NCBI GenBank assembly: GCA_022826245.1 | Contig: JAJDVG010000003.1 | Location: 38,489 to 102,488 of the forward strand | Origin: Gammaproteobacteria bacterium | Lineage (GTDB): Bacteria > Pseudomonadota > Gammaproteobacteria > Steroidobacterales > Rariloculaceae | Reading direction: 5' to 3' | Length of the DNA: 64,000 nt | Shown: positions 48,456-64,000 of the stretch, piece by piece | Layout of the letters: every line of letters begins with the position of its first letter | Position numbering within the stretch: position 1 is the first letter of the stretch | Translations under genes and position numbers: made by a program | Notes under the pieces: generated by a model | Told to the model about the DNA's origin: nothing | The model's input: the letters and a program-made list of their open reading frames with translations, nothing else | The model's database searches: none

Positions 48456-48902
48456 TCATGGCGCCGACCGTCCGCGCTCGGCGCGATATGCAGCCAACCG
48501 CCGTTCGAGGTAGCGCCTGCGCTCCTCGACCTGGCCGTTGCCGCCGCCGAGTTCGGCCCCCGCGTCGACCACGATGGACGTCCATTCCACGAGGTTCGAG
48601 CCGTCCCGCGACGGATGCCCGACGATCTCGATGCGGTCGCCGGGCTCGAGCTGGTCGATCGTCCAGCCCACCCGTCTCAGGTTGATGAAGCTGTCGCCCT
48701 CCGCCATCCAGGATTCGGTCACGCCCTCGGCATTGACGGCGTCGAAATAGATCCGCGCATGCGGATTCACGGCACGGAACTCCGTCACCACGCCCGCGAT
48801 CGTCATGCTCTCGCCGATCCGGTAGTGCGCCGACGCATTGTGGTGCGCGGCAACGGGCAGAGCAACGAGCACGCCGGCCAGGACGAGTATCGCGCGTTTC
48901 AC
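48456..48902 (-). CDS. DUF6152-family secreted protein
   Basis: A 148-residue protein starting, most likely, at GTG 48902 (GGAGGG eight bases upstream; ATG 48917 is the alternative). The signal peptide (KRAILVLAGVLVALPVAA) is directly followed by HHNASAHY. The shared block AGVVTEFRAVNPHARIYF and a compact beta-domain (LEPGDRIEIVGHPSRDG) follow, ending in a basic helix (about 125-148). It is 43 bp downstream of a paralogue of the partner family. Function unknown. Confidence 0.77.
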   Translation of the reverse strand: MKRAILVLAGVLVALPVAAHHNASAHYRIGESMTIAGVVTEFRAVNPHARIYFDAVNAEGVTESWMAEGDSFINLRRVGWTIDQLEPGDRIEIVGHPSRDGSNLVEWTSIVVDAGAELGGGNGQVEERRRYLERRLAAYRAERGRSAP

Positions 48903-48944
48903 GTCATGTCCCTCCATTCGAGTCCTTTACTCACCTCGCGAGGC

Positions 48945-49853
48945 TTAGCGCTGCCCCGAAATCGCCTCGCAGGGCAGATCCTGCAAGGGCACCTCGGGCG
49001 TGAAGAGCCGTGTGCTCCTGAGCGTCAGCGGCTCGCGGAACATGACCGGGTCATCGAGCGTGAACGTCATGTGCAGCCTGCTGCCGTCCTCGCTGACCGT
49101 GTAACGCTCGACACTCGTGGCCGCGTCGCTGTTGTGGATGTTGAGCGAGTCCTCGGCGATCGCAGCGCTGACGCCAACCGTCTCGACGACGAGCGTCGAC
49201 CCTTCGTAGCGGCCGATCGAGTGCCCCATCGGGGTGGGCCGCAGACCGGCGGGGTGGCCGCGGCCGTCGATGAAGATGGTGCGGTCCGAGGCCATGTCCT
49301 CGCCGCGAATGATGACGCGGTCCGCCTGCTGTTCGAACTCGATGGGATCGGCGTGCAGCAGGCTCCGGAACGCCCCGAACGGCTCGCACTGGATCGCCGG
49401 ATCGTCCCGATGGTCGAAGGCCGCCGCGTAGTCTCGCGCGGCCTCCGTAAAGCGCCCGGCGATGCTCTGCCGGTTGTGCGCGCCGATCTCCCTCAGGATC
49501 TCGGTGGCGGAAAGGTCGTCGCTGGCCGGATCGTTAAGGAGTTCGGTGATCCGCTCGTAGGTTTCCGGCGTACAGGTGCACTGGAAGAGTTCCTCGAGCG
49601 TCCAGGCCGGGTGCTCGAGCGCCGTGACCGTCGTGCTCCAGACGCCCGCGAGCGCCGGGGGCCGATCCTGGGCGTTGGCCGCCGGCAGGCCGACGAGGCC
49701 CGGAATCGCCAACGCCGCCGCGAAACCGCTGACAACGAGGCCACCGCCGATGCGAGCCGCCCGTCTTCGACGGATTCCCGGCAACGCCGGGACCGCGCCC
49801 TGCTCGACTCGCGTCAGTGTCTTTCCCGGTTTTGTTCGTACCAGGAGCGGCAT
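48945..49853 (-). CDS. Secreted protein of unknown function, DUF6152-associated
   Basis: A 302-residue protein from ATG 49853 (GGAG before it). The hydrophobic signal is preceded by an unusually long basic N-region of about 40 residues and ends LPAANAQ. The shared motif reads MGHSIGRYEGSTLVVETVGV, then a beta-rich region. Two Cys occur close together in LFQCTCTPE, which the other paralogues lack. First gene of the second DUF6152 group, divergent from the ACP gene across 148 bp. Confidence 0.6.
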   Translation of the reverse strand: MPLLVRTKPGKTLTRVEQGAVPALPGIRRRRAARIGGGLVVSGFAAALAIPGLVGLPAANAQDRPPALAGVWSTTVTALEHPAWTLEELFQCTCTPETYERITELLNDPASDDLSATEILREIGAHNRQSIAGRFTEAARDYAAAFDHRDDPAIQCEPFGAFRSLLHADPIEFEQQADRVIIRGEDMASDRTIFIDGRGHPAGLRPTPMGHSIGRYEGSTLVVETVGVSAAIAEDSLNIHNSDAATSVERYTVSEDGSRLHMTFTLDDPVMFREPLTLRSTRLFTPEVPLQDLPCEAISGQR

Positions 49854-49927
49854 TGGGGCTCCGTGGCTCTGTGCCTGGCCATTGTACCCGAACGGCGTTG
49901 AACCTACGCGTCGCGCGGCAAGCGGTC

Positions 49928-49956
49928 TTGCCACTGTCAGGTCGCTGCACTATAGT
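49928..49956 (+). promoter_or_regulatory. Sigma-70-type promoter for the ACP gene
   Basis: TTGCCA (49928-49933) and TATAGT (49951-49956) are separated by exactly 17 bp. Transcription would start near 49963, giving a leader of about 40 bases with a small GCCCC/GGGGC stem (49958-49962 and 49973-49977) and an AGAGGAG ribosome site before ATG 50002. It is the best-formed promoter in the window. Confidence 0.75.
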
Positions 49957-50001: not shown

Positions 50002-50229
50002 ATGTCGTCAACGCAAGATCGTCTCACACAGCTCATCGACGAGCATCTTGATCTCGGCCGCGATCCCGATTTCGACGCCCAGTTGGGCGACTCCGGGGTT
50101 TCCTCGGTGGATGCGGTCGCGTTCTTCAAGGAGGTGAACAACGTGTTCAGCCTCTCGCTGCAGCCCGAGGATTGTCTGCAATTCAAGACCCTGAGAGATC
50201 TTGTCGCCTATATCGACGCCCAGGGCTGA
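50002..50229 (+). CDS. Stand-alone acyl carrier protein
   Basis: A 75-residue carrier protein with the four-helix ACP pattern. The phosphopantetheine site is DSGVSSVD with Ser35 as the likely attachment residue; the usual DSL is changed to SSV. Helix II and III signatures follow (FFKEVNNVF, LQFKTLRDLVAYI). It has its own good promoter and ribosome site and lies next to a type I PKS whose second KS-AT half lacks an ACP. The likely role is to receive or supply acyl groups in trans to that PKS, activated by the Sfp-type transferase at the right edge. Confidence 0.85.
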   Translation: MSSTQDRLTQLIDEHLDLGRDPDFDAQLGDSGVSSVDAVAFFKEVNNVFSLSLQPEDCLQFKTLRDLVAYIDAQG

Positions 50230-50400: not shown

Positions 50401-51300
50401 ATGACAACGCAAGCCGTGTGGGAGATTCCCGAGCCGGTCTCGGTATGTGACGTACGTCTTGACGAGCACACCGTGACCACCGTGCGGCAGCACGGCAATG
50501 CGTCCGGCCCGCGGCTGGTTCTGAGCCACGGCAACGGACTCGCGATCGATCTCTATTATCCGTTCTGGTCGTTGCTCGCCGACGACCACGAGCTGATCGT
50601 CTACGACCTCAGAAACCATGGCTGGAACAGCGTCGATCGGCCGAAAGATCACAATATTCCCACGCTGATTCGCGACCACGACCTCGTTTTCGAGACGATC
50701 GACAGTGTATACGGGTCCAAACCGACCGTCGGCGTCTTTCATTCCGTTTCCTCGATCATCCCGCTGCTGTCGTTCAGCAACCCCTACTCGGGCCTCGTCC
50801 TGTTCGATCCGCCGCTATGCAAGCCCGGCAAGAATCAGATCGAGCTTCACAACGCCGCCGAACAGGCCGCCGCGAGGATTCGCAATCGGGGGCATCGCTT
50901 CAGGACGAGAGAGGAGTTTTCCGACTTTCTTCGCTACATACCGTCGTTCACGCGCGTCGTTCCCGGTGTCCGGGAACTCATGGCCGAGACAACCCTTCGG
51001 CCGACGGCGGATGGGGACGGGTTCGAGTTGCGCTGCCCGCGCGAATATGAAGCGCAGCTCATGGACTACGCGCGATGCTTCTTCGAGCTCGTCGACCTCG
51101 ATCTGGTCTCCTGTCCCGTCAAGATCGTCGGAGCGGACCCGACCCTTCCGTATTCGTACCTGCCGACCTTCGACCTGAGCTATCTCATGAAGGTGGACTA
51201 CGACTTCATTCCCGAGGCAACGCACTTTCTCCAGCTCGAACAGCCGGAGGAATGCGCCGCGGCGGTGCGCGATTTCCTGAACAGCGGGCAACCGTCCTAG
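50401..51300 (+). CDS. Alpha/beta hydrolase, candidate polyketide-releasing or editing enzyme
   Basis: A 299-residue alpha/beta hydrolase. The oxyanion-side phrase is LSHGNGLAID. The nucleophile elbow is atypical, VGVFHSVSS (Ser115), with Ser in place of the second Gly. Asp246 (VGADPTLP) and His275 (EATHFLQLEQPEE) complete a plausible triad. It has no signal peptide. It lies 171 bp after the ACP gene on the same strand, and its TAG stop shares a CTAG with the stop of the convergent PKS gene. The PKS has no thioesterase, so this may release or hydrolyse its product; an unrelated esterase cannot be excluded. Confidence 0.75.
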   Translation: MTTQAVWEIPEPVSVCDVRLDEHTVTTVRQHGNASGPRLVLSHGNGLAIDLYYPFWSLLADDHELIVYDLRNHGWNSVDRPKDHNIPTLIRDHDLVFETIDSVYGSKPTVGVFHSVSSIIPLLSFSNPYSGLVLFDPPLCKPGKNQIELHNAAEQAAARIRNRGHRFRTREEFSDFLRYIPSFTRVVPGVRELMAETTLRPTADGDGFELRCPREYEAQLMDYARCFFELVDLDLVSCPVKIVGADPTLPYSYLPTFDLSYLMKVDYDFIPEATHFLQLEQPEECAAAVRDFLNSGQPS

Positions 51301-54300
51301 GAAGGACTCCCGGCCTGCCGCTCCCGGGTCGCGATCCAGTGGCGCCGGCGTTCGAAGGGATAGTCGGGCAGCGCTGTCCGGCGGCGCGTCTCGCCCGCGA
51401 AGAGCCCCGCGAACGACACCGCGAGCCCCGCCTCGTAGGCGCCGGCGACGGCTTCCAGGAAGTCGCGGTCCGGGGCGAGATCGATCACCACATCGACACC
51501 CGCGGCCTCCAGCGTCGGGACGCAGCGCTCCAGCGCTTCCGGTCCCGTCGCAACGTGCTGCAGCCATTGCGCCATGTCAGGAGCTTCATCGGGCGCGACC
51601 ACACGGCCGGAAACGGCATCGACGAGAGTCAGCGACGGCGCGCCCATTGCAACGGCCTCCAGTAACGCGCCGGGATCGTCCAATGCCGCTGCCTGCCGCA
51701 CGCCATCCTCGAGGCTCAACGCTCCGGCCGCCTGCGCGGCCGCAAGTCCCCCGACGCCCTGTCCGAGCGCCACGCCCGGCACGACGCCGACACCGGCCCA
51801 CAGCGCCGTGAGCGCGCACTCGAAGGCGTAGACCGCCGGCCGCTCCCACTGCGGATCGCTCAGGTCCCCCGCGGCGCCGGAACGACCGAACATCACGTCT
51901 AGCAGCGAAGCGGCGCGCACTTCGCCGAACACTTCCTCGCAGCGGTCGAGAACCGCCCGCACCACCGGCTCGCTCGCGTACAGTGCGGCAGCCATGCCAG
52001 CCCAACCGCTCCCGTGACCGCTGTAGACGAAAGCGACCTTTCTCGGCGTCCCCGATCGCGATCGCTCGTCCGCTTCGGCGAGCGTACGCAGACGCTCGCG
52101 CAGCGACTCGCTGTCGCTGAAGAGCACCGCCGCGCGATGGTCGAAGTGACTGCGCCCGACGCCCGCGGTCCACGCCATGTCGGCAAGCACGGACCCGGAG
52201 GCCGCAGCGTCGGGCGCAAGCGCCGATTCGCGTTCGTCGAGCCACTCGAGATACCGCTGCGCGAGCTTGCGAAGCGATGCGGCGGATTTCCCGGAGAGCG
52301 GCAGAAGCCGCGTTTCGCGCGGGGCAAGCCCGCCGTCGCCATCGTCTGCTTGCGGCAGCGCCTCGACGGCGCCGGGCAGCGGGACGGCGACCGGCCGGGG
52401 AGCGCCGACGGGATCGGGAGAGACGTCGTTCGGCGTACCGTAGCCCTCGACCACCACATGCGCGTTCGTGCCTGAAATCCCGAAGGCGCTGACTCCGGCC
52501 CGCAGCGGCCGGTCCGGCGCAACGGGCCAACCCGTCGCCTCGGACACCACGCGCACCGGCAGGCGGTCCCAATCCAGGTGCGGGTTCGGATCCTCGAAAT
52601 GCAGGTGCTTCGGGATCAGACCGTGGCGCATGGCCAGGACGACCTTGATCAGCGCGGCGACCCCCGCCGCGGATTCGAGATGGCCGATATTGGTCTTGAC
52701 CGAACCGATCAGCAGCGGCCGGCCACTGTCGCGCCCCCTGCCATAGACCGCACCCGCGGCCTGTACCTCGATCGGGTCGCCGAGCTCCGATCCGGCCCCG
52801 TGCGCCTCGAGGTAGTCGACCTCCGACGGCTCAACCCCCGCCTGCGACAGCGCCTCCTCGATCACCCGCTCCTGCGCCGGGCCGTTCGGCACCGTCGGCC
52901 CTGCCGCCGCGCCGTTCTGGTTCACTGCCGCGCCCCGGATCACCGCCCAGATGCGGTCACCGTCGGCTTCCGCCTCCGCCAGGCGCTTCAGGACCACCAT
53001 CCCGCAGCCTTCGCTGCGCACGAAGCCGTCCGCCGCGGCGTCGAAGGTCTTGCAACGCCCCGCCTTCGACAACATCCCGAGCGCCGCCATCTCCCTCGTG
53101 AGGCCGGCCGAAAGGATCGCGTTCACGCCGCCGACCAGGGCCAGGTCCACCTCTCCGTCGCGCAGCCCCGCGACCGCCTGCTGCACCGTGACCAGCGACG
53201 CGGCGCAGTTGAGGAGCACCGGCATCGCCGGCCCCGTGAGTCCGAGCTTGTACGCGATACCGCCGACCGCCATGCTGCCGGCGGTGCCGAGATAGTTGAG
53301 GCTCTCGCCCCCGGCCATCATCATCAGGTCGCGGTATTCGCTGGCCGCGATGCCTGCGTACACGCCGGTGCGGCTGCCTTTCAGGGTCTCCGGATCGATG
53401 CCGGCGTCTTCGAGCGCCCGCCAGGTCGTCTCGAGAAGCATCCGCTGCTGCGGATCCATCATGCGGGCGCCGATCGGTGTCATGCCGAAGAATCGCGCAT
53501 CGAAGCGATCGATCCCGTCGACGAACCCGCCACGCTCCCAGGTTCCGTCCCCGCTCGCGGGGTCGCCGGCGACGCCGGTCCAGGATGCCTTGTCCTGCCG
53601 TGCGTTCGTCACCGCGTCGTGGCCGGCCTCGAGCTGGCGCCAGAAGGTCGCGATATCCGGCGCACCCGGAAAACGGCACGCCATGCCGACGATCGCGATT
53701 CCGCCGTCGTCGCTTCCGGGCGGCGGCTGCGCACCCGGCTCGGCGCTCGGTTCCGGCGCCGCTTGGGGGTCAGGATCGGCCGCCGCCTCGGGCGCCGGGG
53801 CGGGATCGCCGAGCACATCGACGAGGTGACTGGCGAGATCCGCAATGGTCGGGAAATCGAATACGAGCGTATTCGGCGCCACGTAGGCATCGGAGAAGGC
53901 CCTGTTCAGGCGGTTGCGCAGTTCGACCGCCATCAGGGAATCCATCCCGAGGTCGAAGAATCCGACCGCGGACGCCGGCGCCGAGGGCAGCCTCAGTACG
54001 GCCTGCACCTCCCCCTGCAGGAAGGAAACCAGCAGATCCTCGCGGCCCGCCGAGGGCGTCGAGGTGAGCTGTTCGAGCAGATCCTCGGACGAGGACGAGT
54101 CGTCGTCGTCCGCGTCGACCGCGAGCAGGTCCTCGAGCAGGGAGGGACGGCCGTCGAGGGTCTCGCCGAACACGGGCCAGTCCACGACCGCCATCGCGGC
54201 GCCCGTCGCGTCCTGGTGCAGCAGGCGCTCCAATGCCTTGAAACCCTGTTCCGGCGTGAACCAGCCGGTGCCGGACGCTTCGCGCCGCTCCGCGATCCGT

Positions 54301-57300
54301 TCCCGCTGCTCCTCCGCCTCGCCGAGCCCCGACCACGCTCCCCAGGCGATGGCCTGCGCCGGGAGACCCAGCGCGCGCCGGTGGGCGGCGAGCTGATCGA
54401 GAAAGGCGTTGGCCGCGGCGTGGTTGGCCTGGCCCGGATTGCCCAGAACGCCGGCGACGCTCGAGAACAGGACGAACATGTCGAGATCGCGTCCCGCCGT
54501 CGCCCGGTGCAGGTGCCAGGCGCCGAGCATCTTCGGCCACAGCACGGTCTCGAAGCCTTCCCAGCTCTGGTTGCCGAGGGCGGCATCCGCCAGCACGCCG
54601 ACGCTGTGGATCACGCCCGCAAGCGGCGGCAGCGTCCCGTCCATCCGCTCGAGCATCGCGTCGAGCGCAGCCGCGTCCGTCACGTCGGCGATCTCGACCT
54701 CGATGCCGAAGCCGCGGGCGCGCAGCGCCTCGATCGCTCTTTGCGCCGCGGCGTCCGGCGGCCTGCGGCCATTCAGCACCACCGTGCCCGCGCCGCGCTC
54801 GGCGAGCCATTCGGCGAGCGCGCAGCCGATGCCGCCCATGCCGCCGGTCACGAGATAGGTTCCGTCCGGCCGCAGCCGTCCCGCCCTGAGCGCAGGCATC
54901 GTCAGCACGATCTTGCCGATGTGCCGCGCCGCGCGCATGTAGCCCATCGCGGCGCTCGTCTCGGCGAACGGCCACCGGGTGTGCATGAGCGGCGCGAGTT
55001 CGCCCGCCGCGATGCGCGCCAGCACCTGTTTCAGGGCGGCGCCCGGCCGCGCCGGGTCCTGCACCTTGAGGTTGTAGAGATCGAGGATCGAATAGGCGAC
55101 GTCCGGGCGCGCCGCCGCCATCTCGTCCTCAGTCAGGATGTCGCGCCGTGCGAGTTCGACGAAGCGGCCGTCCTGCGCGAGGCAGGCGAGGCTCGCGTCG
55201 ATAAAGCCCTCGCCCGTCAGGCTGTTGAGCACCACGTCGACGCCGGCGCCGTCCGTCACGTCGAGAATTTCTTGGCCGAACCCTGTCGTGCGGCTGTCGA
55301 ACACGTGCTCGACGCCGAGCGAGCGCAGATACGCCTGCTTGCGCGCGCTTGCCGTGGCGAACACTTCCGCACCGGCTGCCTGCGCGAGCTGGATGGCCGC
55401 GAGCCCGACGCCGCCGGCGCCCGCGTGAATCAGCACGCGGTCCCCGGCCTTGAGCCCGGCAAGCTCGAAGGACAGCACGCAGGTCACGAATACCGACGGG
55501 ATCGTGGCGAGCGCCGTCGCCGACACACCCACGGGTGCGATCGCGACCAGTTCCTCGTGGGTCACCACCTCCGGCCCGAACGTGCCGAACGCGAAGCCCG
55601 CCACCCGGTCGCCCACGGAGACGGCGGTCACGCCGGAACCGATCTCGACGACCCGGCCACAGAACTCTTCGCCGAGCGACCCCTCCTCCTCGACCAGCCC
55701 CATGGCCCGGAACACGTCCAGGAAGTTGAGCCCGCAGGCTTCGACCTCGGCGCGCAGCTCGTTGGGCCCGAGCGCTCGTGCCTCCAGCGGCTGGACGCGC
55801 AGCGTCTCGATCGCTCCACCGTCGTCCGGCGCCAGCACCCAGCTCGCGTCGTCCGGCAACGCGAGGCGCGGCGCGCCGGAATCCGCCCGAACCAGCCGGG
55901 CGGTCTGGCGGCGCTCACGGCGATGCGCGATGTGGTTCTCGGAGTCCGGGAACAGCAATTCGTTCGCAAGCACGGCCTGCGGCTCCGCCGCCTCGGGATC
56001 GAGATCGAGCATCCGCGCCTGCAGTTGGGGCGCTTCCCGCGCCGCCACCTTGCCCAGGCCCCACAGGGGGGCGCCGGCCAGTTGCCCGCTCCGCTCGCGT
56101 TCGAGCACCTGCGCGCCCCGGGTGACGAACCACAGGCCCTTCTCGGGCGCGGCGTCGGCGTCGGCGATGCCCTGCACGAGCGCGAGCGCGCTTGCCGCCG
56201 CCCGTTTCGCGTCTTCGGCCATCTCGGCGGTCGTCGCGCCCGCGCCACGGCCGTCCTGCGCGACGAGATGCACGACGCCCGCGAACGGCACGTCCTGCGG
56301 CAGGCCTTCGACGAGCGATCGCCAGGACCCGCGCTGCTCCATGTCGATCGTTGCCTTGACGATCGTGGCTGCGCCGGCCACCGCCGCGCCCTGCTCCTCC
56401 GCAGCCCTGCCCGCGCGGTCCGAGTCATCGCCCGCGCCCGCCGAGCCATCGGCGGCGCGATCCGGATCGTCAGTCGCACGCTCCGCCGCCGCGCCCGCGC
56501 CCGCCGAAACATCGCCCACCGCCCCTGCCCCGTCCGGCCCACCGACGGCGAGCACGACCCGCTGATTCTTCGCTGCGAGTTCCGCCGCAAGGTGCGCCGC
56601 CACGCCGCCCCGGTCGGCGGCCAGGATCCATGCGCCCGCGGGCAGGTCGATCTTCGCCGGACCCTGCGCCACGATGACGCCTCGATCCGGCAGACCGGCC
56701 GCTTCGGACCGGTCCACGCCAAGGACTTCGGATTCCGCGAAGCCGCTGTCGGCGAGCGCCCGGTTCCAGACCTCTGGCCCGGCGAGGGCGTGGTTGGGCC
56801 GGTAGCGGTCCGCGAAACGCCACCACCCGTCGAGCTGACCGAAGATCAGGTCCATCCAGCCCCTGCCGCGCTGGTTCTCGAGCGCCACGAGCAGCCCCGA
56901 TGGCGCGAGCAGCTCCCGGCAGTGGGCGAGCGTCTCGTCCAGATGGCGCGTGGCGTGCAACACATTGGCCGCGATGATCAGGTCGTAAGCGTGGGGCTCG
57001 AAGCCCTGGTCCATGGGGTCCTTCTCGATGTCGAGCACCCGGTAGTCGATCGAAGCGCCGCCCGTGCTGAAGCGCGACTCCGCCTCGGCGAAGAATCCCG
57101 CGGAGATGTCGGTGTACATGAGGTCGAACCGTCCGGCCGGCAGCAGGGGCAGGATGTACTCGGTCGCCGAGCCGATTCCGGCGCCCACCTCGAGCACGCG
57201 CAGCGTCCTCCCGTCCGGCAATTCGTCGACGAGCGTGCGGACCACTTCGGCGATCATCCGGTTCGCCGCCCGCCAGACCGGCGCGAGACGATACAGGTCG

Positions 57301-60300
57301 CCGGCCGTCGGCTGCGTATCGCCGAACAGCAGCGAAAGCGGGTCCTCGTTGCCGCGGAGCACCTCGGGCAGGGCTCCGGCACAGCGCCGGAACAGCCCGA
57401 TTTCGTTCACGGCATGCGTGAAGCGCTCCGTTACCCCGGTCAGAAAGGCCTCGGAATCGGGCGGCATTCGGTCCGGCAAGGGCTCGTCCGTTCCGACCGT
57501 GACGACGAAGTCTTCGCCCTTCGCCTCCAACACGCCCGAGCGAGCGAGGATCTCGAGCATCCGGCGCAGCAGATTGGCATGCTCGGGCAGGATCTCGAGG
57601 CGCTCGCACAGCTCTGCGGGGTCCACGACCGCACCTGCGCTGCGCTCCCAGCCCAGCGTTTCGAGCGCCGAAAGCGCATAGCACCACGACACGCGCTCCA
57701 TCTCGCCCTGCAGCTCGACCTCGGCGGCGACCTCGACGCCCTCGTCGGCCAGATAACTCGAAAAGAGTTTCGAGCGGGAAGCCGCGGCCGACGGGCTCGG
57801 CAGGAAGTCCGCCGGCGGCATGCCCGGAGGCAGGGGGCAGTCGCGCCAGACGACTTCGTAGAGCAGTTCGTCGATGCCTTCCACGGCAGCCAGCAGCGCG
57901 CTGCGCGTCGCCCGCTTCACCGTGTAGCCGGTCAGCATGCCGATCGGGGCGCCGTCGACGTCGTAGAGAGCGATGTCGGCGCTGATCACCTCCCGTGAAT
58001 CGGCGCCGTCCGCTTCCCCTCTCGTGCGCACATGGCAGAGCAGGCGGTCCGGCAGGCGCTCCGGCAAGGCGAGCCGCTCCCAGCCGAAGGGCAGGTACGT
58101 CACCGGCTCGTCGGCGCCGTCCGGCGCCCGCGCCGCGGCCATGACCTGGAAGCAGCCGTCGAGCATCAGCGGATGGATATCCAGCCCGCCGCGGCCGACG
58201 GCATCCGGCAGGCATATCTCGCCCAAGGCTTCGCCCGGCCGCGACCAGAGCTTCTCGAGCGTTCGGAACGAGGGGCCGAGATCGATGCCGACCTCGGCCT
58301 TGCTGCGGTAATAGGCCTGAAGCTCCACCGCGGCCATATCGGCCTTGAGCCGTGCCGGATCGAGCGCCGCGCCGGCGGCCGGCGAGCCCGGATCGGCGTC
58401 CGTCGAGACCCGGCCCTCCGCATGCAGCGTCCAGTCCGCGTCGTCGGCGCCGCGGCTCAGGATCCGGACGCGGCGCGCTGCGTCCTCATCGGGGTCGTCG
58501 AGCAGCACTTGCAGGCGGCGGCCCTCTTCCTCGCTTGCATCCCCGCCGGTCGTCTGTGGAAAGACGAGCGCGGTCCGCATCTGGAAGTCCTCGACGACCG
58601 CCGCGCCGGGGCTGTCGGCCGTGCAGGCCGACGCCGCCATGGCGCCGTAGAGCGCGCCGGGCGCCACGAGCCGGTTGAAGACGCGGTGGTCGCCGAGCCA
58701 TGCGGGGTCGGAGGGAAAGAGCTCCGTGTCGAAACTGATCTCGCCGCTCGCCGAATCGTGCCGCGCGCCCAGCAAGGGATGCCCGGCGCCGGACCGACGC
58801 CGTCTGGGCGCCTCGACCCAGTAACGCTCGCGCTGGAAGGGATAGCCCGGCAGCTCGATGCGGCGGCGTTCCTCGCCGGCGAAGAGCCCGTCGAAGCGCA
58901 ACGGCAACCCCGCCTCGTAGACGCCGGCGACGGCCTCCACGAAGCCGCCTCCGGACCCCGGCGCCGGCGCATCTTCGCCGGTCGCGGGCCGTCTGAGGCT
59001 CGACACCACCGCGGGCTCGGCAAGCCCTCCCGCATCCGGCCAGGCCAGCGTGGTCATCGGCCCGAGCACCGCATGCGGACCGATCTCCACGACCGCATCC
59101 ACGCCGAGCTCCGCCAGGGTCTCGACGCACGCCCGGTAAGCCACCGGCGCGCGCATCTGCCGGCGCCAATACGCGGCGTCGAGCGCTTCGTCCGAACCCA
59201 CCGTCCGTCCGTTCAGATTGCTGATGAAGGGCAGCGTCGGCGGCGCAAAGGCAAGCTCGGCGAGCGCCGTCTCCAGGTCGTCCATCGCGGGCTCGATCAT
59301 CGCGCTGTGATAGGCGGGGCTCCTGCGCAGCCGCGCGACGCGGATATCCGCCGCTTCCAGAAGCTCGAGGATCGCGGCGATCTCCCCTGCCGGTCCGCTG
59401 ATGACCTGATGGGCCCCGTTGTCGGCTGCGATGCAGAGGCCGACGCCCTGCGCAGCCGCATTGTGCTCGTCGAGCGCCTCTGCGACACGGGAAGCCGGCG
59501 CGAACACCGCCGCCATCGCGCCCTCGCCGGGCAGGGCGCCGACCAGCGCACCGCGCCTGGCCGCAACGCGCAAGCCGTCCTCGAGACCGAATACGCCCGC
59601 GGTGTGCGCTGCCGCGATCTCGCCGAGGCTGTGCCCAAGCACGACGTCCGGCCGGATGCCGAGGCTCGACCACAGCGCCGCGAGAGCGCATTCGAGCGCG
59701 TAGATCGCCGGCTGCTTCCATTGCGGGTCGTCCAGATCGCCCGCCGCGCCGGCGCGGCCGAACATCACGTCGAGCAGCGAGGCGCCGCGCTCTTCGACGA
59801 GCACCGCGTCGCAGCGGTCGAGGACCGCGCGCACCACCGGCTCGCTTGCGTAGAGCGCCGCGCCCATGCCCGGCCACTGGCTGGCCTGGCCGGTGTAGAC
59901 GAACGCGACCGTTCCCGCCTTGCGCGATGCCGCCTGTTCGTCCGTCCCGGCGATCGCCCGCAAGCCCGCGCGCAGCGATCCGGCATCTTCGAACACCACC
60001 CCCGCCCGGCAGCCGAAGTGGCTGCGGCCGATGCCGGCCGACCAGGCCATGTCCGCAAGCAGGGCGTCGGCCGCCGCGCCCCCGGCCGCGAGCGCCTCCC
60101 CGCGTTCATCGAGCCACTCGATGTATCGCGCCGCCATGTCGCGAAGCGCCGCGTCCGTCTTGCCCGAGAGCGGCAGCAGGCGCGTTGCGCGCGGGGCAGG
60201 CGCGTCCTTCGACGGCGGCGACGCGGCGGCAAGCGGCAACGAAACGGCGATCGGCCGCGCGGCGCCGGCGATCCAGCCGCCCGCATCGACGCGGGGCGCG

Positions 60301-61655
60301 GCGCCGTCCGGCGGAGTGTATCCCTCGAGGACGACGTGGGCGTTCGTGCCCGACCAACCGAACCCGCTCACGCCCGCGAGGGGCGGACGGCCTCCGTCTG
60401 CAGGCCATGGCGTCGGTGTTGACGTCACCTGTAGCGGCAACCGTTCCCAGTCCATCTCGGGATTCGGGGTCCTGAAATGCAGGTGCTGCGGGATGATGCC
60501 CCGATTCATCGCGAGCACCGTCTTGATCAACCCCGCGACCCCCGCCGCGGATTCGAGATGCCCGATATTCGTTTTCACCGAGCCGATCAGCAGCGGGCGG
60601 TCCGCATCCCGGCCATCGCCGTAGACCGCCGCCGTCGCGTTGATCTCGATCGGGTCGCCCACCTCGGTGCCGGTGCCGTGCGCCTCGAGATAATCGATAT
60701 CCGCCGCCTCGACCCCGGCACGCTCGAGCGCCGCACGGATCACGCGTTCCTGCGCGGCCCCGTTCGGAACCGTCAGGCCCTGGCTCGCCCCGTACTGGTT
60801 CAGCGCCGAGCCGCGGATGACTCCCCAGATGCGGTCGCCGTCGGCCTCAGCATCGGCGAGCCGCTTCAGGACCAGGATGCCGCAGCCCTCGCCCCTGACG
60901 TAGCCGTTGGCCGACGCATCGAAGGTCTTGCACTGGCCGTCCGGCGACAGCATCCCGGCGTTGGCGCGAAACTCGAGCAGCCGGCCGGAGAGAATGACGT
61001 TCACCCCGCCCGCGAGCGCGAGGTCCGCGTCGCCGCGCTGCAGCCCAGTGACGGCCTGGTGCGTCGCGACCAGCGATGACGAGCAGGCCGTGTCCACGGC
61101 CATCGCCGGTCCCCCGAGCCCGAGAGCGAAGGCGACCCGGCCGATCGCCGTATTCAGCGACGTGCCGGTAACGGCGTAGAGACTCGCGGCCGGCTCCGAC
61201 GGCCCCGCGTCCTCGCGGGCCTCGAGGATCAGCCCCCGGTAGTCGTTGTTGCTGATGCCGGCATAGACGCCGGTCGGGCTGTCCTTGAGAAGATCCGGAT
61301 CGATGCCGGCGTCTTCGAGCGCGCGCCAGCTCGTCTCGAGAATCAGCCGCTGCTGCGGATCCAGCAGTTCCGCTTCGACCGGCGAAATGCGGAAGAAGGC
61401 GGCGTCGAAGCGGTCGATGACGTCGAGGTCGAGATAGGCGCCGAAGCGGCAGGCTTCGATCTGTCCAGTATCGTCCGGAAACAGCGCGCCCACGCGCCCG
61501 ACACCGGACCCCGGAAGGCCCTCCTGCACGGCGTTGCCGCCGCCTTCAAGCAGACGCCAGAAGGCGGAAAGGCCGTCGGCTCCGGGAAACCGGCACGCCA
61601 TGCCGACGATCGCCACCGGCTGTCCGAACCCGGGAAACTCCGGCGAATCCGTCAT
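51297..61655 (-). CDS. Bimodular type I polyketide synthase with a vestigial second AT
   Basis: A 3452-residue PKS. KS1 (12-446): Cys191 in DTACSSS, His326, His366. AT1 (585-870): Ser676 in GHSLG, YHS at 782-784, malonyl-type. DH (955-1245): His990 and Asp1166. C-methyltransferase (about 1320-1650): VGAGIG at 1490-1495. Structural psiKR (1670-1925) with a low-complexity insert. ER (1930-2250): AGAGGVGLAAIQ at 2078-2089. KR (2262-2500): TGGMGGIG; the usual Tyr is His2412. ACP: Ser2573 in GMDSL. KS2 (2652-3070): Cys2817 in the atypical NCAAS, His2952, His2992. AT2 (3205-3440) is truncated and reads GQGVG, lacking the catalytic Ser. No final ACP or thioesterase. The start overlaps the permease stop (ATGA). 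Confidence 0.95.
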   Translation of the reverse strand: MTDSPEFPGFGQPVAIVGMACRFPGADGLSAFWRLLEGGGNAVQEGLPGSGVGRVGALFPDDTGQIEACRFGAYLDLDVIDRFDAAFFRISPVEAELLDPQQRLILETSWRALEDAGIDPDLLKDSPTGVYAGISNNDYRGLILEAREDAGPSEPAASLYAVTGTSLNTAIGRVAFALGLGGPAMAVDTACSSSLVATHQAVTGLQRGDADLALAGGVNVILSGRLLEFRANAGMLSPDGQCKTFDASANGYVRGEGCGILVLKRLADAEADGDRIWGVIRGSALNQYGASQGLTVPNGAAQERVIRAALERAGVEAADIDYLEAHGTGTEVGDPIEINATAAVYGDGRDADRPLLIGSVKTNIGHLESAAGVAGLIKTVLAMNRGIIPQHLHFRTPNPEMDWERLPLQVTSTPTPWPADGGRPPLAGVSGFGWSGTNAHVVLEGYTPPDGAAPRVDAGGWIAGAARPIAVSLPLAAASPPSKDAPAPRATRLLPLSGKTDAALRDMAARYIEWLDERGEALAAGGAAADALLADMAWSAGIGRSHFGCRAGVVFEDAGSLRAGLRAIAGTDEQAASRKAGTVAFVYTGQASQWPGMGAALYASEPVVRAVLDRCDAVLVEERGASLLDVMFGRAGAAGDLDDPQWKQPAIYALECALAALWSSLGIRPDVVLGHSLGEIAAAHTAGVFGLEDGLRVAARRGALVGALPGEGAMAAVFAPASRVAEALDEHNAAAQGVGLCIAADNGAHQVISGPAGEIAAILELLEAADIRVARLRRSPAYHSAMIEPAMDDLETALAELAFAPPTLPFISNLNGRTVGSDEALDAAYWRRQMRAPVAYRACVETLAELGVDAVVEIGPHAVLGPMTTLAWPDAGGLAEPAVVSSLRRPATGEDAPAPGSGGGFVEAVAGVYEAGLPLRFDGLFAGEERRRIELPGYPFQRERYWVEAPRRRRSGAGHPLLGARHDSASGEISFDTELFPSDPAWLGDHRVFNRLVAPGALYGAMAASACTADSPGAAVVEDFQMRTALVFPQTTGGDASEEEGRRLQVLLDDPDEDAARRVRILSRGADDADWTLHAEGRVSTDADPGSPAAGAALDPARLKADMAAVELQAYYRSKAEVGIDLGPSFRTLEKLWSRPGEALGEICLPDAVGRGGLDIHPLMLDGCFQVMAAARAPDGADEPVTYLPFGWERLALPERLPDRLLCHVRTRGEADGADSREVISADIALYDVDGAPIGMLTGYTVKRATRSALLAAVEGIDELLYEVVWRDCPLPPGMPPADFLPSPSAAASRSKLFSSYLADEGVEVAAEVELQGEMERVSWCYALSALETLGWERSAGAVVDPAELCERLEILPEHANLLRRMLEILARSGVLEAKGEDFVVTVGTDEPLPDRMPPDSEAFLTGVTERFTHAVNEIGLFRRCAGALPEVLRGNEDPLSLLFGDTQPTAGDLYRLAPVWRAANRMIAEVVRTLVDELPDGRTLRVLEVGAGIGSATEYILPLLPAGRFDLMYTDISAGFFAEAESRFSTGGASIDYRVLDIEKDPMDQGFEPHAYDLIIAANVLHATRHLDETLAHCRELLAPSGLLVALENQRGRGWMDLIFGQLDGWWRFADRYRPNHALAGPEVWNRALADSGFAESEVLGVDRSEAAGLPDRGVIVAQGPAKIDLPAGAWILAADRGGVAAHLAAELAAKNQRVVLAVGGPDGAGAVGDVSAGAGAAAERATDDPDRAADGSAGAGDDSDRAGRAAEEQGAAVAGAATIVKATIDMEQRGSWRSLVEGLPQDVPFAGVVHLVAQDGRGAGATTAEMAEDAKRAAASALALVQGIADADAAPEKGLWFVTRGAQVLERERSGQLAGAPLWGLGKVAAREAPQLQARMLDLDPEAAEPQAVLANELLFPDSENHIAHRRERRQTARLVRADSGAPRLALPDDASWVLAPDDGGAIETLRVQPLEARALGPNELRAEVEACGLNFLDVFRAMGLVEEEGSLGEEFCGRVVEIGSGVTAVSVGDRVAGFAFGTFGPEVVTHEELVAIAPVGVSATALATIPSVFVTCVLSFELAGLKAGDRVLIHAGAGGVGLAAIQLAQAAGAEVFATASARKQAYLRSLGVEHVFDSRTTGFGQEILDVTDGAGVDVVLNSLTGEGFIDASLACLAQDGRFVELARRDILTEDEMAAARPDVAYSILDLYNLKVQDPARPGAALKQVLARIAAGELAPLMHTRWPFAETSAAMGYMRAARHIGKIVLTMPALRAGRLRPDGTYLVTGGMGGIGCALAEWLAERGAGTVVLNGRRPPDAAAQRAIEALRARGFGIEVEIADVTDAAALDAMLERMDGTLPPLAGVIHSVGVLADAALGNQSWEGFETVLWPKMLGAWHLHRATAGRDLDMFVLFSSVAGVLGNPGQANHAAANAFLDQLAAHRRALGLPAQAIAWGAWSGLGEAEEQRERIAERREASGTGWFTPEQGFKALERLLHQDATGAAMAVVDWPVFGETLDGRPSLLEDLLAVDADDDDSSSSEDLLEQLTSTPSAGREDLLVSFLQGEVQAVLRLPSAPASAVGFFDLGMDSLMAVELRNRLNRAFSDAYVAPNTLVFDFPTIADLASHLVDVLGDPAPAPEAAADPDPQAAPEPSAEPGAQPPPGSDDGGIAIVGMACRFPGAPDIATFWRQLEAGHDAVTNARQDKASWTGVAGDPASGDGTWERGGFVDGIDRFDARFFGMTPIGARMMDPQQRMLLETTWRALEDAGIDPETLKGSRTGVYAGIAASEYRDLMMMAGGESLNYLGTAGSMAVGGIAYKLGLTGPAMPVLLNCAASLVTVQQAVAGLRDGEVDLALVGGVNAILSAGLTREMAALGMLSKAGRCKTFDAAADGFVRSEGCGMVVLKRLAEAEADGDRIWAVIRGAAVNQNGAAAGPTVPNGPAQERVIEEALSQAGVEPSEVDYLEAHGAGSELGDPIEVQAAGAVYGRGRDSGRPLLIGSVKTNIGHLESAAGVAALIKVVLAMRHGLIPKHLHFEDPNPHLDWDRLPVRVVSEATGWPVAPDRPLRAGVSAFGISGTNAHVVVEGYGTPNDVSPDPVGAPRPVAVPLPGAVEALPQADDGDGGLAPRETRLLPLSGKSAASLRKLAQRYLEWLDERESALAPDAAASGSVLADMAWTAGVGRSHFDHRAAVLFSDSESLRERLRTLAEADERSRSGTPRKVAFVYSGHGSGWAGMAAALYASEPVVRAVLDRCEEVFGEVRAASLLDVMFGRSGAAGDLSDPQWERPAVYAFECALTALWAGVGVVPGVALGQGVGGLAAAQAAGALSLEDGVRQAAALDDPGALLEAVAMGAPSLTLVDAVSGRVVAPDEAPDMAQWLQHVATGPEALERCVPTLEAAGVDVVIDLAPDRDFLEAVAGAYEAGLAVSFAGLFAGETRRRTALPDYPFERRRHWIATRERQAGSPS

Positions 61656-63400
61656 GTTTTTCCTCCGCCGGCTGGCGCTGCCACGCGCACCGTCACGATA
61701 TCCGTCCCGCGATATTGCTGATGGTGCACGGAGGACGCGAGTCGGCGCAACAGCCGCAGCGACACTTCGTGCTCGGGAGGTAACGCGCCCGGCTCGTCGG
61801 GCAGCAGGGCAAGCCGGTCCTGGATATTGTCCTCGCGGGACGCGACGACGAACTCCAGCACCGCCCCGCTGCCTTCCCGGTAGGCCACCAGGCGCAGGCG
61901 GCGTTCTTCCTTACTCTCCTGCGCGGCGAGCGTCAGCAGCGTCTCCTCGCAGGCGGCGTCGAGACGCTCCGCCATCGCCGTGTCCCAGCCGCTTCGAAGC
62001 GCGAACCCGGCCAGGAACTCCCGTATCGTCGGCAGGATCGACAGATCGAACGCCACCTCGATCCGGCTCCGGCGCGGTTTGGTCATCTCGACGAAAAGCG
62101 TCATCAGGATGACCGCGATCCCGCCGGTCGTGACCCCGTTGCGCAGCAGGCCGCCCGCGAATTGCGAGACCTGCTCGAAAAACACCATGTCGGTCTGGAA
62201 ACCGACGCCGATCCAGAACGCGATGCCGACGATCAGGCCGTTTCGGGAGTCGATCCCGTCCTGCGTGACCATCTTGATGCCGATGATGAAAAGCATCGCG
62301 AGCAACACGGCGAGATAGGCCGCGAACACGGGACCCGGTATGGCCAGCACCACGGCGAGGACCTTGGGCAGGAAGGCGATCGCGATGAATACCGCCCCGG
62401 TCGCGATACCGACGCTGCGGGCGCCGACGCCGGTGAGCTCGGTCACGGACGTGCCCACCGTCGAAGCCGTGTTCGGCGTCGTGCCCGCGAGACCGGCGGC
62501 GATGTTGCCGACCCCGTCCACGGCGATCGCGCCCTGTACCGCCCGCAGATCGACCGCCCTCGCCGTGCGCCACGAAACGCGCTGGATGGCGACCGCGCCG
62601 CTGATCGTGCGAATCGAGGCGATCGCTGCGACCAGCAGGAAGCCCGGCAACAGCGCCCAGAAGGCCGGCCCGAAATCGAGATCGAAACCCGGCCACTGCC
62701 CGGTCGGGACGCCGAACCAGGGCGCCTCTGCGATCTGGCGAATGTCGTAGAGGCCGAAATAGGCGGCGACGGCGGAGCCGACGACGACACCGATGACCGG
62801 CGCCCAGAGACGCAACGCGCCCGATGCCGTCAGCGCGATGCCGACGATGACCAGTATCACCGCCAGCGCGCTCAGCGGGGCCGCCGACGACGGACTCCCG
62901 GCGGGCACGGCCGTCAGGAGGTCGAAGGCGGCCGGCATGACCGTGACCGGTATCAGCATGACTACGGTTCCCGAAACGGTCGGCGTGAGCACGCGCTGGA
63001 AGAGCGACAGCCGCGCGGACAGCAGCAGCGGAACGAAGGCGGCGACCACGACCAGGGTCGCCAGCAGCGCCGGGCCGCCGGCCTCGACCGCGGTGATGCA
63101 CACGGCAATGAACGCGCCCGACGCGCCCATCACGACCACGTGCCCCGTGCCGATCCAGCGGGCCCGCACCGCCTGCAGCATGGTCGTCGCGCCGCAAATC
63201 GCCACGGTGGCGAATACCGCCCATGCCAGGTAGCCCTCGCTTGCGCCCGCCGCCCGCATCACGATCGTCGGCACCAGTATGATGGCGGCCAGACTCAGCA
63301 CGGCGATCTGCAGGCCGAGGCCGAGAGCGAGCGCCGGCGGCACTCGTTCGTCCGGCTCGTAGCGGAGGCCGCCGTTGCCGTCGGGACCTGCTGCACTCAT
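61652..63400 (-). CDS. NCS2-type permease fused to an RsbW-like ATPase fold
   Basis: A 582-residue protein from ATG 63400 (a TTG at 63427 is possible). Residues about 21-437 hold some 13-14 hydrophobic helices with xanthine/uracil-permease signatures: GATTMLQA, AIASIRTISGAVAIQ, GTTPNTASTVGTSVTELTG (split by its turn), GIATGAVFIA. Residues about 447-574 form a cytoplasmic domain like HATPase_c_2/RsbW: a helix with ERLDAACEETLLTLAAQ in the N-box position, then GAVLEFVVA, EVSLRLLRRLASSVHHQQ and TDIVTVRV. The N-box Asn is missing, so ATP binding is uncertain. Coupled to the PKS gene (ATGA). Cargo unknown. Confidence 0.75.
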   Translation of the reverse strand: MSAAGPDGNGGLRYEPDERVPPALALGLGLQIAVLSLAAIILVPTIVMRAAGASEGYLAWAVFATVAICGATTMLQAVRARWIGTGHVVVMGASGAFIAVCITAVEAGGPALLATLVVVAAFVPLLLSARLSLFQRVLTPTVSGTVVMLIPVTVMPAAFDLLTAVPAGSPSSAAPLSALAVILVIVGIALTASGALRLWAPVIGVVVGSAVAAYFGLYDIRQIAEAPWFGVPTGQWPGFDLDFGPAFWALLPGFLLVAAIASIRTISGAVAIQRVSWRTARAVDLRAVQGAIAVDGVGNIAAGLAGTTPNTASTVGTSVTELTGVGARSVGIATGAVFIAIAFLPKVLAVVLAIPGPVFAAYLAVLLAMLFIIGIKMVTQDGIDSRNGLIVGIAFWIGVGFQTDMVFFEQVSQFAGGLLRNGVTTGGIAVILMTLFVEMTKPRRSRIEVAFDLSILPTIREFLAGFALRSGWDTAMAERLDAACEETLLTLAAQESKEERRLRLVAYREGSGAVLEFVVASREDNIQDRLALLPDEPGALPPEHEVSLRLLRRLASSVHHQQYRGTDIVTVRVAAPAGGGKT

Positions 63401-63432
63401 GGGGCTAAAACGTATCGCGGGGCTCAATCATA

Positions 63433-63562: not shown

Positions 63563-64000
63563 TCAGCTCGATACGGGCGAATCCGGCTTCCGCCAGGCGA
63601 GCGCGGCGGCGAACCGGCGCTCGCCGAGATCGGCAAGCCGCCAGGTCTCCGCGGGCGAGTCGGAAAACCGGTACTCCCCGGTGCGAGCGCCGCGCAATAG
63701 CGGCGCCGGGAGTTCGATGCCCCTGGGCGAGCGCGAAAAGCCCGTGCCGATGGCCTTGATCAGGGCTTCCTTGAGGCTCCAGAGCCGGTAGAACTGATCG
63801 GGCTTGTCCCGCTCCCCGGCGCGCTCGAGCAAGCGCTGCTCGGCCGGCGTGAAGACCAGCCGGCCGATGCCTTCGAGGTCCTCGCGCGGCCGGCGCTCCT
63901 CCACGTCGACGCCGATCCGCTCGTGACCGTCGATCGCGATCAGGCCGTGACGGCCGCTGTGACTGACGTTGAACCCGTGGGCCGCGCGCCGGCCGCCGAC
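63563..64000 (-). CDS. Sfp-type 4'-phosphopantetheinyl transferase, partial (5' end off the window)
   Basis: The frame stays open from the stop at 63563 to the right edge (145 codons visible). The visible protein begins within the conserved core: FNVSHSGRHGLIAID, then GVDVEERRP with the Mg2+-binding Asp/Glu, and WSLKEALIKAIGTG with the Lys/Glu of motif 3. Spacing fits Sfp-type rather than AcpS-type enzymes. It converts apo-carrier proteins to holo form, so it should activate both the PKS ACP and the stand-alone ACP. A GTG at 63904 is internal, not the start, because motif 2 lies upstream of it. About the first 80-100 residues are missing. Confidence 0.9.
   Translation of the reverse strand, partial: VGGRRAAHGFNVSHSGRHGLIAIDGHERIGVDVEERRPREDLEGIGRLVFTPAEQRLLERAGERDKPDQFYRLWSLKEALIKAIGTGFSRSPRGIELPAPLLRGARTGEYRFSDSPAETWRLADLGERRFAAALAWRKPDSPVSS

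Follow-up and report, generated by a model that had tools for sequence, protein, structure and literature searches.

A type I polyketide synthase ending in a conserved ketosynthase and an inactive acyltransferase remnant, accompanied by a free acyl carrier protein and a hydrolase

The synthase and its terminal unit

We analysed a stretch of 64,000 nucleotides (the window) of contig JAJDVG010000003.1 from a Gammaproteobacteria bacterium (assembly GCA_022826245.1), which carries on its minus strand a single open reading frame (ORF, 51297..61655) for a type I polyketide synthase (PKS) of 3452 aa. Its domain order is KS-AT-DH-MT-psiKR-ER-KR-ACP-KS2-AT2, i.e. one full module with ketosynthase (KS), acyltransferase (AT), dehydratase (DH), methyltransferase (MT), enoylreductase (ER), ketoreductase (KR) and acyl carrier protein (ACP), followed by a second KS and AT. 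Pfam searches recovered KS, AT, DH, MT, ER, KR, ACP and another KS, then a repeat of the KS-AT linker and an incomplete second AT, so the order given in a preliminary description of this DNA is real, with the pseudo-KR (psiKR) placed by position only. The same description had found neither an ACP nor a thioesterase (TE) at the end of the protein, and Pfam agrees: the synthase has a single ACP and no TE match, there is no PP-binding match after KS2, and the protein ends at the post-AT linker.

Two sets of homologues were collected. The first comprised the 120 best protein clusters ranked by similarity to KS2-AT2 itself, and since this ranking could have selected for the tail, the ranking was repeated with the middle of the synthase to obtain a second set. 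The second set brought 42 new proteins; 36 of them within 2800-3600 aa were added, while P0153 (shorter) and five longer ones were omitted. Residue counts refer to the 147 aligned proteins of both sets, window synthase included; P0123 and P0152 are truncated within KS2 and were scored as gaps for its His and Lys positions. As many as 110 of the 120 clusters are 3100-3600 aa long, and 108 of these 110 relatives of similar length cover every domain (part of KS1 is gone in P0101 and the ER in P0108). Because of this agreement in length and content, the layout of the synthase is not a product of chance.

KS2 (residues 2660-3095, 52371..53678) is 61 % identical to KS1 of the same protein (249/405) and keeps the catalytic Cys-His-His and Lys. 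The Cys (residue 2817, codon 53205..53207) is present in 147/147 proteins, and both His and the Lys in all 145 rows that cover them. The residue before the Cys is Asn in 143 of the 147 proteins, Thr in three and Ala in one; the window KS2 reads LNCAASL, whereas KS1 (residues 12-440, 60336..61622) has the canonical DTACSSSL with the usual TAC. A quick tree, supported by SH-aLRT alone, was built from 88 KS domains (28 KS1 and 28 KS2 of hand-picked family proteins and 32 others); its outgroup branches were long enough to draw a warning from the program. KS1 and KS2 formed one clade each, both with an SH-aLRT value of 100, and for this reason the KS2-AT2 tail most likely arose once, ahead of the spread of the family. 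The ratio of nonsynonymous to synonymous substitutions (dN/dS), calculated against five relatives, was 0.12-0.20 for KS2, 0.07-0.12 for KS1 and 0.12-0.19 for AT1. The family points to a ketosynthase retained for a role other than ordinary cis-loaded elongation.

Several proteins depart from the family norm NC[AS]SL at the KS2 active site. The motif is DMTCASSL (TCASSL) in P0149, P0151 and P0154 and DTACASSL (ACASSL) in P0108, the protein without ER. The variants included in the tree branch early within the KS2 clade and could represent an intermediate or a second type.

AT2 (residues 3205-3440, 51336..52043) is a dead remnant. Where AT1 has GHSLGE the window AT2 reads GQGVGG, with the catalytic Ser replaced by Gly (residue 3300, codon 51756..51758), and among the 138 proteins comparable at this position we found Gly in 131, Asp in five, Gln in two and Ser in none. 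About 90 residues are deleted from the catalytic Arg on, so that the stretch with the catalytic His of YHS is gone, and 41 more residues are missing later; this His is absent in 143/143 comparable proteins. Five relatives have retained KS2 and lost AT2 almost wholly. Loss of the Ser and His kills an AT, and as both are absent in every comparable protein, AT2 is unable to load anything; module 2 therefore cannot load its own extender. The preliminary description had taken the terminal domain for a usable AT, which these losses contradict.

For AT2, dN/dS came to 0.11 with the closest relative and ranged over 0.29-0.36 with the remaining four. For the DH the values were 0.14 and 0.23, then 0.37-0.41 in three relatives, and as the DH is thus as relaxed as AT2, a high dN/dS alone is no mark of a dead domain. 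A structure model of KS2-AT2 (mean pLDDT 61) was poor in the KS part and usable in the AT2 part (approximately 455-775 of the modelled piece), where it suggests that AT2 is still folded; it revealed no readable ACP site. Across the family, the AT next to an intact KS can be followed through a natural series of decay that runs from dead domains to nearly complete deletion. With a dead AT2 beside an untouched KS2, the tail should not be annotated as an ordinary second module.

The first module appears complete. AT1 (residues 585-890, 58986..59903) has a working AT signature, with Ser, Arg and His each in 147/147 proteins. Pfam further identified the DH (residues 959-1254, 57894..58781) and the ER (residues 1946-2255, 54891..55820), both with their motifs kept, the C-methyltransferase (residues 1321-1600, 56856..57695), the KR (residues 2262-2520, 54096..54872) and the internal ACP (residues 2535-2615, 53811..54053), whose attachment Ser is present in 147/147 proteins. 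The putative structural psiKR (residues 1640-1930, 55866..56738) lies between MT and ER and had no Pfam match. At KR residue 2412 the usual catalytic Tyr, which is Tyr in the aligned MAS and AmphB chains, is His in 111/111 family members. We considered this change as the main oddity of the family and dropped it, as His was also found in 13 of 17 KRs recognised by pattern in ten longer other PKSs among the 120 clusters. A KR with His at this position thus seems to be common, and it may well work.

The accompanying genes and their distribution

Just past the 3′ end of the synthase, on the plus strand, lie genes for a free ACP of 75 aa (50002..50229, PF00550) and an alpha/beta hydrolase of 299 aa (50401..51300, PF12697), in agreement with the preliminary description; the hydrolase assignment is also backed by its fold. 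The hydrolase and synthase ORFs are convergent and overlap by 4 bases. The ACP carries its attachment Ser in the motif GVSSVD, and this Ser is kept in 63/63 sequences. The hydrolase has the Ser-Asp-His triad expected of an alpha/beta hydrolase thioesterase, with Ser in 57/57 sequences covering it and Asp and His in 58/58 each (window included), and from these residues and its pairing with the ACP we consider it a putative acyl-ACP thioesterase. In 57 of the 63 ACP sequences the residue before the attachment Ser is another Ser instead of the usual Asp, which may suit the cluster's own 4′-phosphopantetheinyl transferase (PPTase).

Gene neighbourhoods were compared in 80 loci from named genomes, the best 80 of the scan, so that counts of loci and phyla are at-least values. 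We regarded 52 of them as informative, as the synthase ORF was intact, exceeded 9 kb and was followed by 5 kb or more of 3′ flank; the other 28 were cut. Downstream flanks reached up to 10 kb and upstream flanks only about 2 kb, for which reason the counts of neighbouring genes are lower bounds. Among the 52 loci, the free ACP was present in 45, the hydrolase in 44, both in 42, an NCS2-type permease in 29 and the PPTase in 16, and four loci had none of these. The link between synthase, free ACP and hydrolase proposed earlier is thus borne out by co-conservation. Where both are present, ACP and hydrolase lie on the same strand in 40/42 loci; gene order and direction otherwise vary, and the ACP is upstream of the PKS in four of the 52 (L033, L050, L066 and L103). 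What is conserved of the convergent arrangement is therefore the gene set and not the convergent order.

The hydrolase was missing near the synthase in eight of the 52 loci, and all six of these eight that were checked belong to genomes carrying it elsewhere (E <= 4.2e-101). Moreover, in a panel of 58 genomes (that of the window together with 57 relatives, which are related and therefore not independent trials) the hydrolase was found at E <= 1e-100 in seven, exactly the genomes with two KS matches in one frame. PKS matches occurred in three further genomes. One with a synthase fragment on a 5.2-kb contig (G016) gave a weaker hydrolase match (E 7.4e-50), and two with more distant PKSs of 41-46 % identity (G028 and G041) gave no hydrolase match.

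To look for further partners, we clustered the flank ORFs of the 80 loci and retained families present in at least six. A recurring third PKS protein, which the preliminary description had named as evidence that would count against its scheme, was not found among them, nor was any other recurring family besides ACP, hydrolase, permease and PPTase; judged by eye, whatever else recurred resembled shadow frames of these four genes. In nine loci a further PKS-like ORF was seen, which in most cases represented a piece of the same synthase. In the genome of the window (96.5 % complete) the KS matches were limited to KS1, KS2, a lone KS frame of 433 aa and a single weak hit.

Second copies of the synthase were observed in two of the nine loci, in a row in L097 and on the other strand in L071. 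Two family clusters, P0095 and P0110, both list a longest contig of 9,419,127 bases, so some genomes seem to be two-copy.

By phylum, 78 of the 80 loci could be assigned, to at least eight phyla: Pseudomonadota (32), Gemmatimonadota (18), Acidobacteriota (11), Latescibacterota (8), Nitrospirota (3), Rhodothermota (3), Chloroflexota (2) and Nitrospinota (1). Flanks that hold both ACP and hydrolase were found in seven of the eight phyla; the exception is Chloroflexota, where the ACP is present in one of the two loci and the hydrolase in none. Genomes with bin names such as RHO, APA, IRC, COS and SB06xx are presumably sponge metagenome bins, the record titles being silent on the host. Sup, the sponge symbiont ubiquitous PKS, was reportedly described by Fieseler in 2007 and Hochmuth in 2010.

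In the available portions of four papers, Sup is a small, monomodular type I PKS of several phyla, proposed (and in one of them stated) to make methyl-branched fatty acids (PMC4245539, PMC3908369, PMC9426513, PMC9864124). SUP clusters are given as independent of taxonomy, with Chloroflexota, Spirochaetota, Proteobacteria and Acidobacteriota named (PMC9426513), and a sponge-specific KS clade is reported to be led by Gemmatimonadetes and Alphaproteobacteria (PMC10308959), again from partial texts. The family studied here resembles Sup as a type I PKS spread over multiple phyla, with methyl-branched fatty acids as the product proposed for Sup; it has one full module plus KS2-AT2, where these accounts call Sup monomodular. 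By description the fit to Sup is good, and the family is probably Sup. No release step for Sup-type PKSs is described in the portions of the literature examined, and if the family is Sup, its exit route could be tested directly with a small number of proteins, namely KS2-AT2, both ACPs and the hydrolase.

Known systems and the route of chain release

As far as the available part of its description goes, CalA3 is the chain-release PKS module of calcimycin, lacks an ACP, and its KS amidates or hydrolyses (PMC10006239). Like KS2-AT2, it is a unit without ACP in which the KS keeps Cys-His-His and Lys and the AT has Ser changed to Gly (PMC10006239). CalA3 is, however, a protein of its own that carries a docking domain and a dead DH-KR part, to which its authors assign a structural role (PMC10006239), whereas KS2-AT2 is fused to a complete reducing module, has no DH-psiKR/KR after AT2, lacks the stretch of about 90 residues in AT2, and belongs to a synthase accompanied by a free ACP and a hydrolase. 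Since the dead DH-psiKR/KR is absent after AT2, we do not class the synthase as a CalA3-type member, only as working alike. CalA3 is the nearest precedent; it shows that a KS of this kind can end a chain and provides the main rival model. The preliminary description knew of no characterised pathway with exactly this arrangement; we found none that matches, but CalA3, an ACP-less release module with a dead AT, is comparable. Nothing in the literature searched on ACP-less PKS ends was judged nearer than CalA3, and the claim reaches no further than that literature.

Another comparable enzyme is SwfA, a mono-modular reducing type I PKS from sponge symbionts, which in the available part of its paper has the order KS-AT-DH-ER-KR-ACP without MT or second KS, works with SwfB and SwfC as partners, and deviates in its DPQQR and HGTGT motifs (PMC3908369). 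As an MT and KS2 are present here and both motifs are intact in KS1, membership of the Swf PKSs was rejected. Mycocerosic acid synthase is also iterative and reducing, makes methyl-branched chains and has no TE of its own, release taking place in trans. It differs in that its branches come from methylmalonyl and not from an MT, it has no second KS, and its release partner is an acyltransferase of another family.

For the conserved gene set, the most likely reading, to which we give an even chance, is that module 1 builds a methyl-branched reduced chain, KS2 hands it to the free ACP and the hydrolase releases it. AT1 would load the extenders, and the module from KS1 to the internal ACP (KS1-DH-MT-ER-KR-ACP) would run, presumably iteratively, as its domains suggest. 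The chain would then move from the internal ACP to the Cys of KS2, whose Cys-His-His-Lys conservation is observed, while AT2 would load nothing and may survive as a scaffold or docking piece. From KS2 the chain would reach the free ACP by plain transfer, or else through one final condensation with malonyl on this ACP, which in that case would be loaded in trans by AT1 or by the stand-alone FabD-like AT of the genome. Finally, the hydrolase would cleave the acyl-ACP, as suggested by its conserved Ser-Asp-His triad and by the way it is paired with the ACP. The PPTase would activate the ACPs.

The His of the KR leaves some doubt on full reduction, though DH and ER have retained their motifs. Like CalA3, a module with a C-H-H ketosynthase that amidates or hydrolyses (PMC10006239), KS2-AT2 has no ACP, and in its AT the Ser has become Gly. 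This agrees with a CalA3-like release by KS2 itself, straight to water or to a small nucleophile such as an amine or alcohol, with ACP and hydrolase serving proofreading, supply or another step. We hold this to be unlikely, though worth serious attention: direct release needs no dedicated ACP, which is kept in most informative loci, no gene for making an acceptor was seen among the recurring flank families, and the dead domains of CalA3 are absent here. The ACP gene has no fixed place 3′ of the PKS, and its position upstream in four of the 52 loci would suit a function at the start, in which the ACP brings KS1 or AT1 a special starter or extender unit and KS2 merely gates or edits the chain. 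This appears improbable, as no acyl-activating enzyme was found among the recurring flank families and the same-strand pairing of ACP and hydrolase would be left unexplained.

The synthase stops at the post-AT linker, as the proteins of split modules do, and a further PKS subunit encoded elsewhere could in principle complete module 2 as in ordinary split assembly lines. We rejected an ordinary split module, since AT2 lacks its catalytic residues and neither the genome nor the flanks revealed a partner PKS. For the window's own genome such a subunit is largely refuted by the short list of KS matches, though a missing contig could still hide one, and we regard it as very improbable. That KS2-AT2 is a functionless, decaying relic of a lost second module is hardly credible, for AT2 is plainly eroded but the KS2 catalytic residues are all kept wherever covered (145-147 proteins), at the low dN/dS given above.

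Exit through KS2, the free ACP and the hydrolase would amount to a new way of ending a chain. We propose tentatively, and with somewhat less than even confidence, that a ketosynthase arose by duplication, shed its own loading domain and carrier and turned into a dedicated exit enzyme acting in trans with a stand-alone ACP and hydrolase, and that this exit cassette travelled with the synthase from phylum to phylum, probably as a lipid trait that sponge symbionts have in common.

Further genes of the locus

The permease and PPTase that recur with the synthase set were not part of the preliminary description. The NCS2-type permease (61652..63427, minus strand, PF00860) lies upstream of the synthase, as does the PPTase (63563..64000, minus strand, PF01648), which is cut by the contig end; a genome of the same genus has a longer PPTase copy upstream of the permease. 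The C-terminal part of the permease is weakly similar to an ATPase domain of the histidine-kinase type, HATPase_c_2, with E-values of 0.0027 for the window piece and 0.036 for L059:12660-14588, below the curated cut-off, and this domain was not listed for the permeases of L028 and L043. The protein is possibly a transporter fused to a regulator, judging from this similarity.

A DUF6152 protein and a protein of 329 aa (48456-49934) were considered as members of the set and dropped, as they were found in only 1/80 loci. Both recur in L110, L115 and L116 of the same genus, partly as several pairs, and seem to form a small expanded family.
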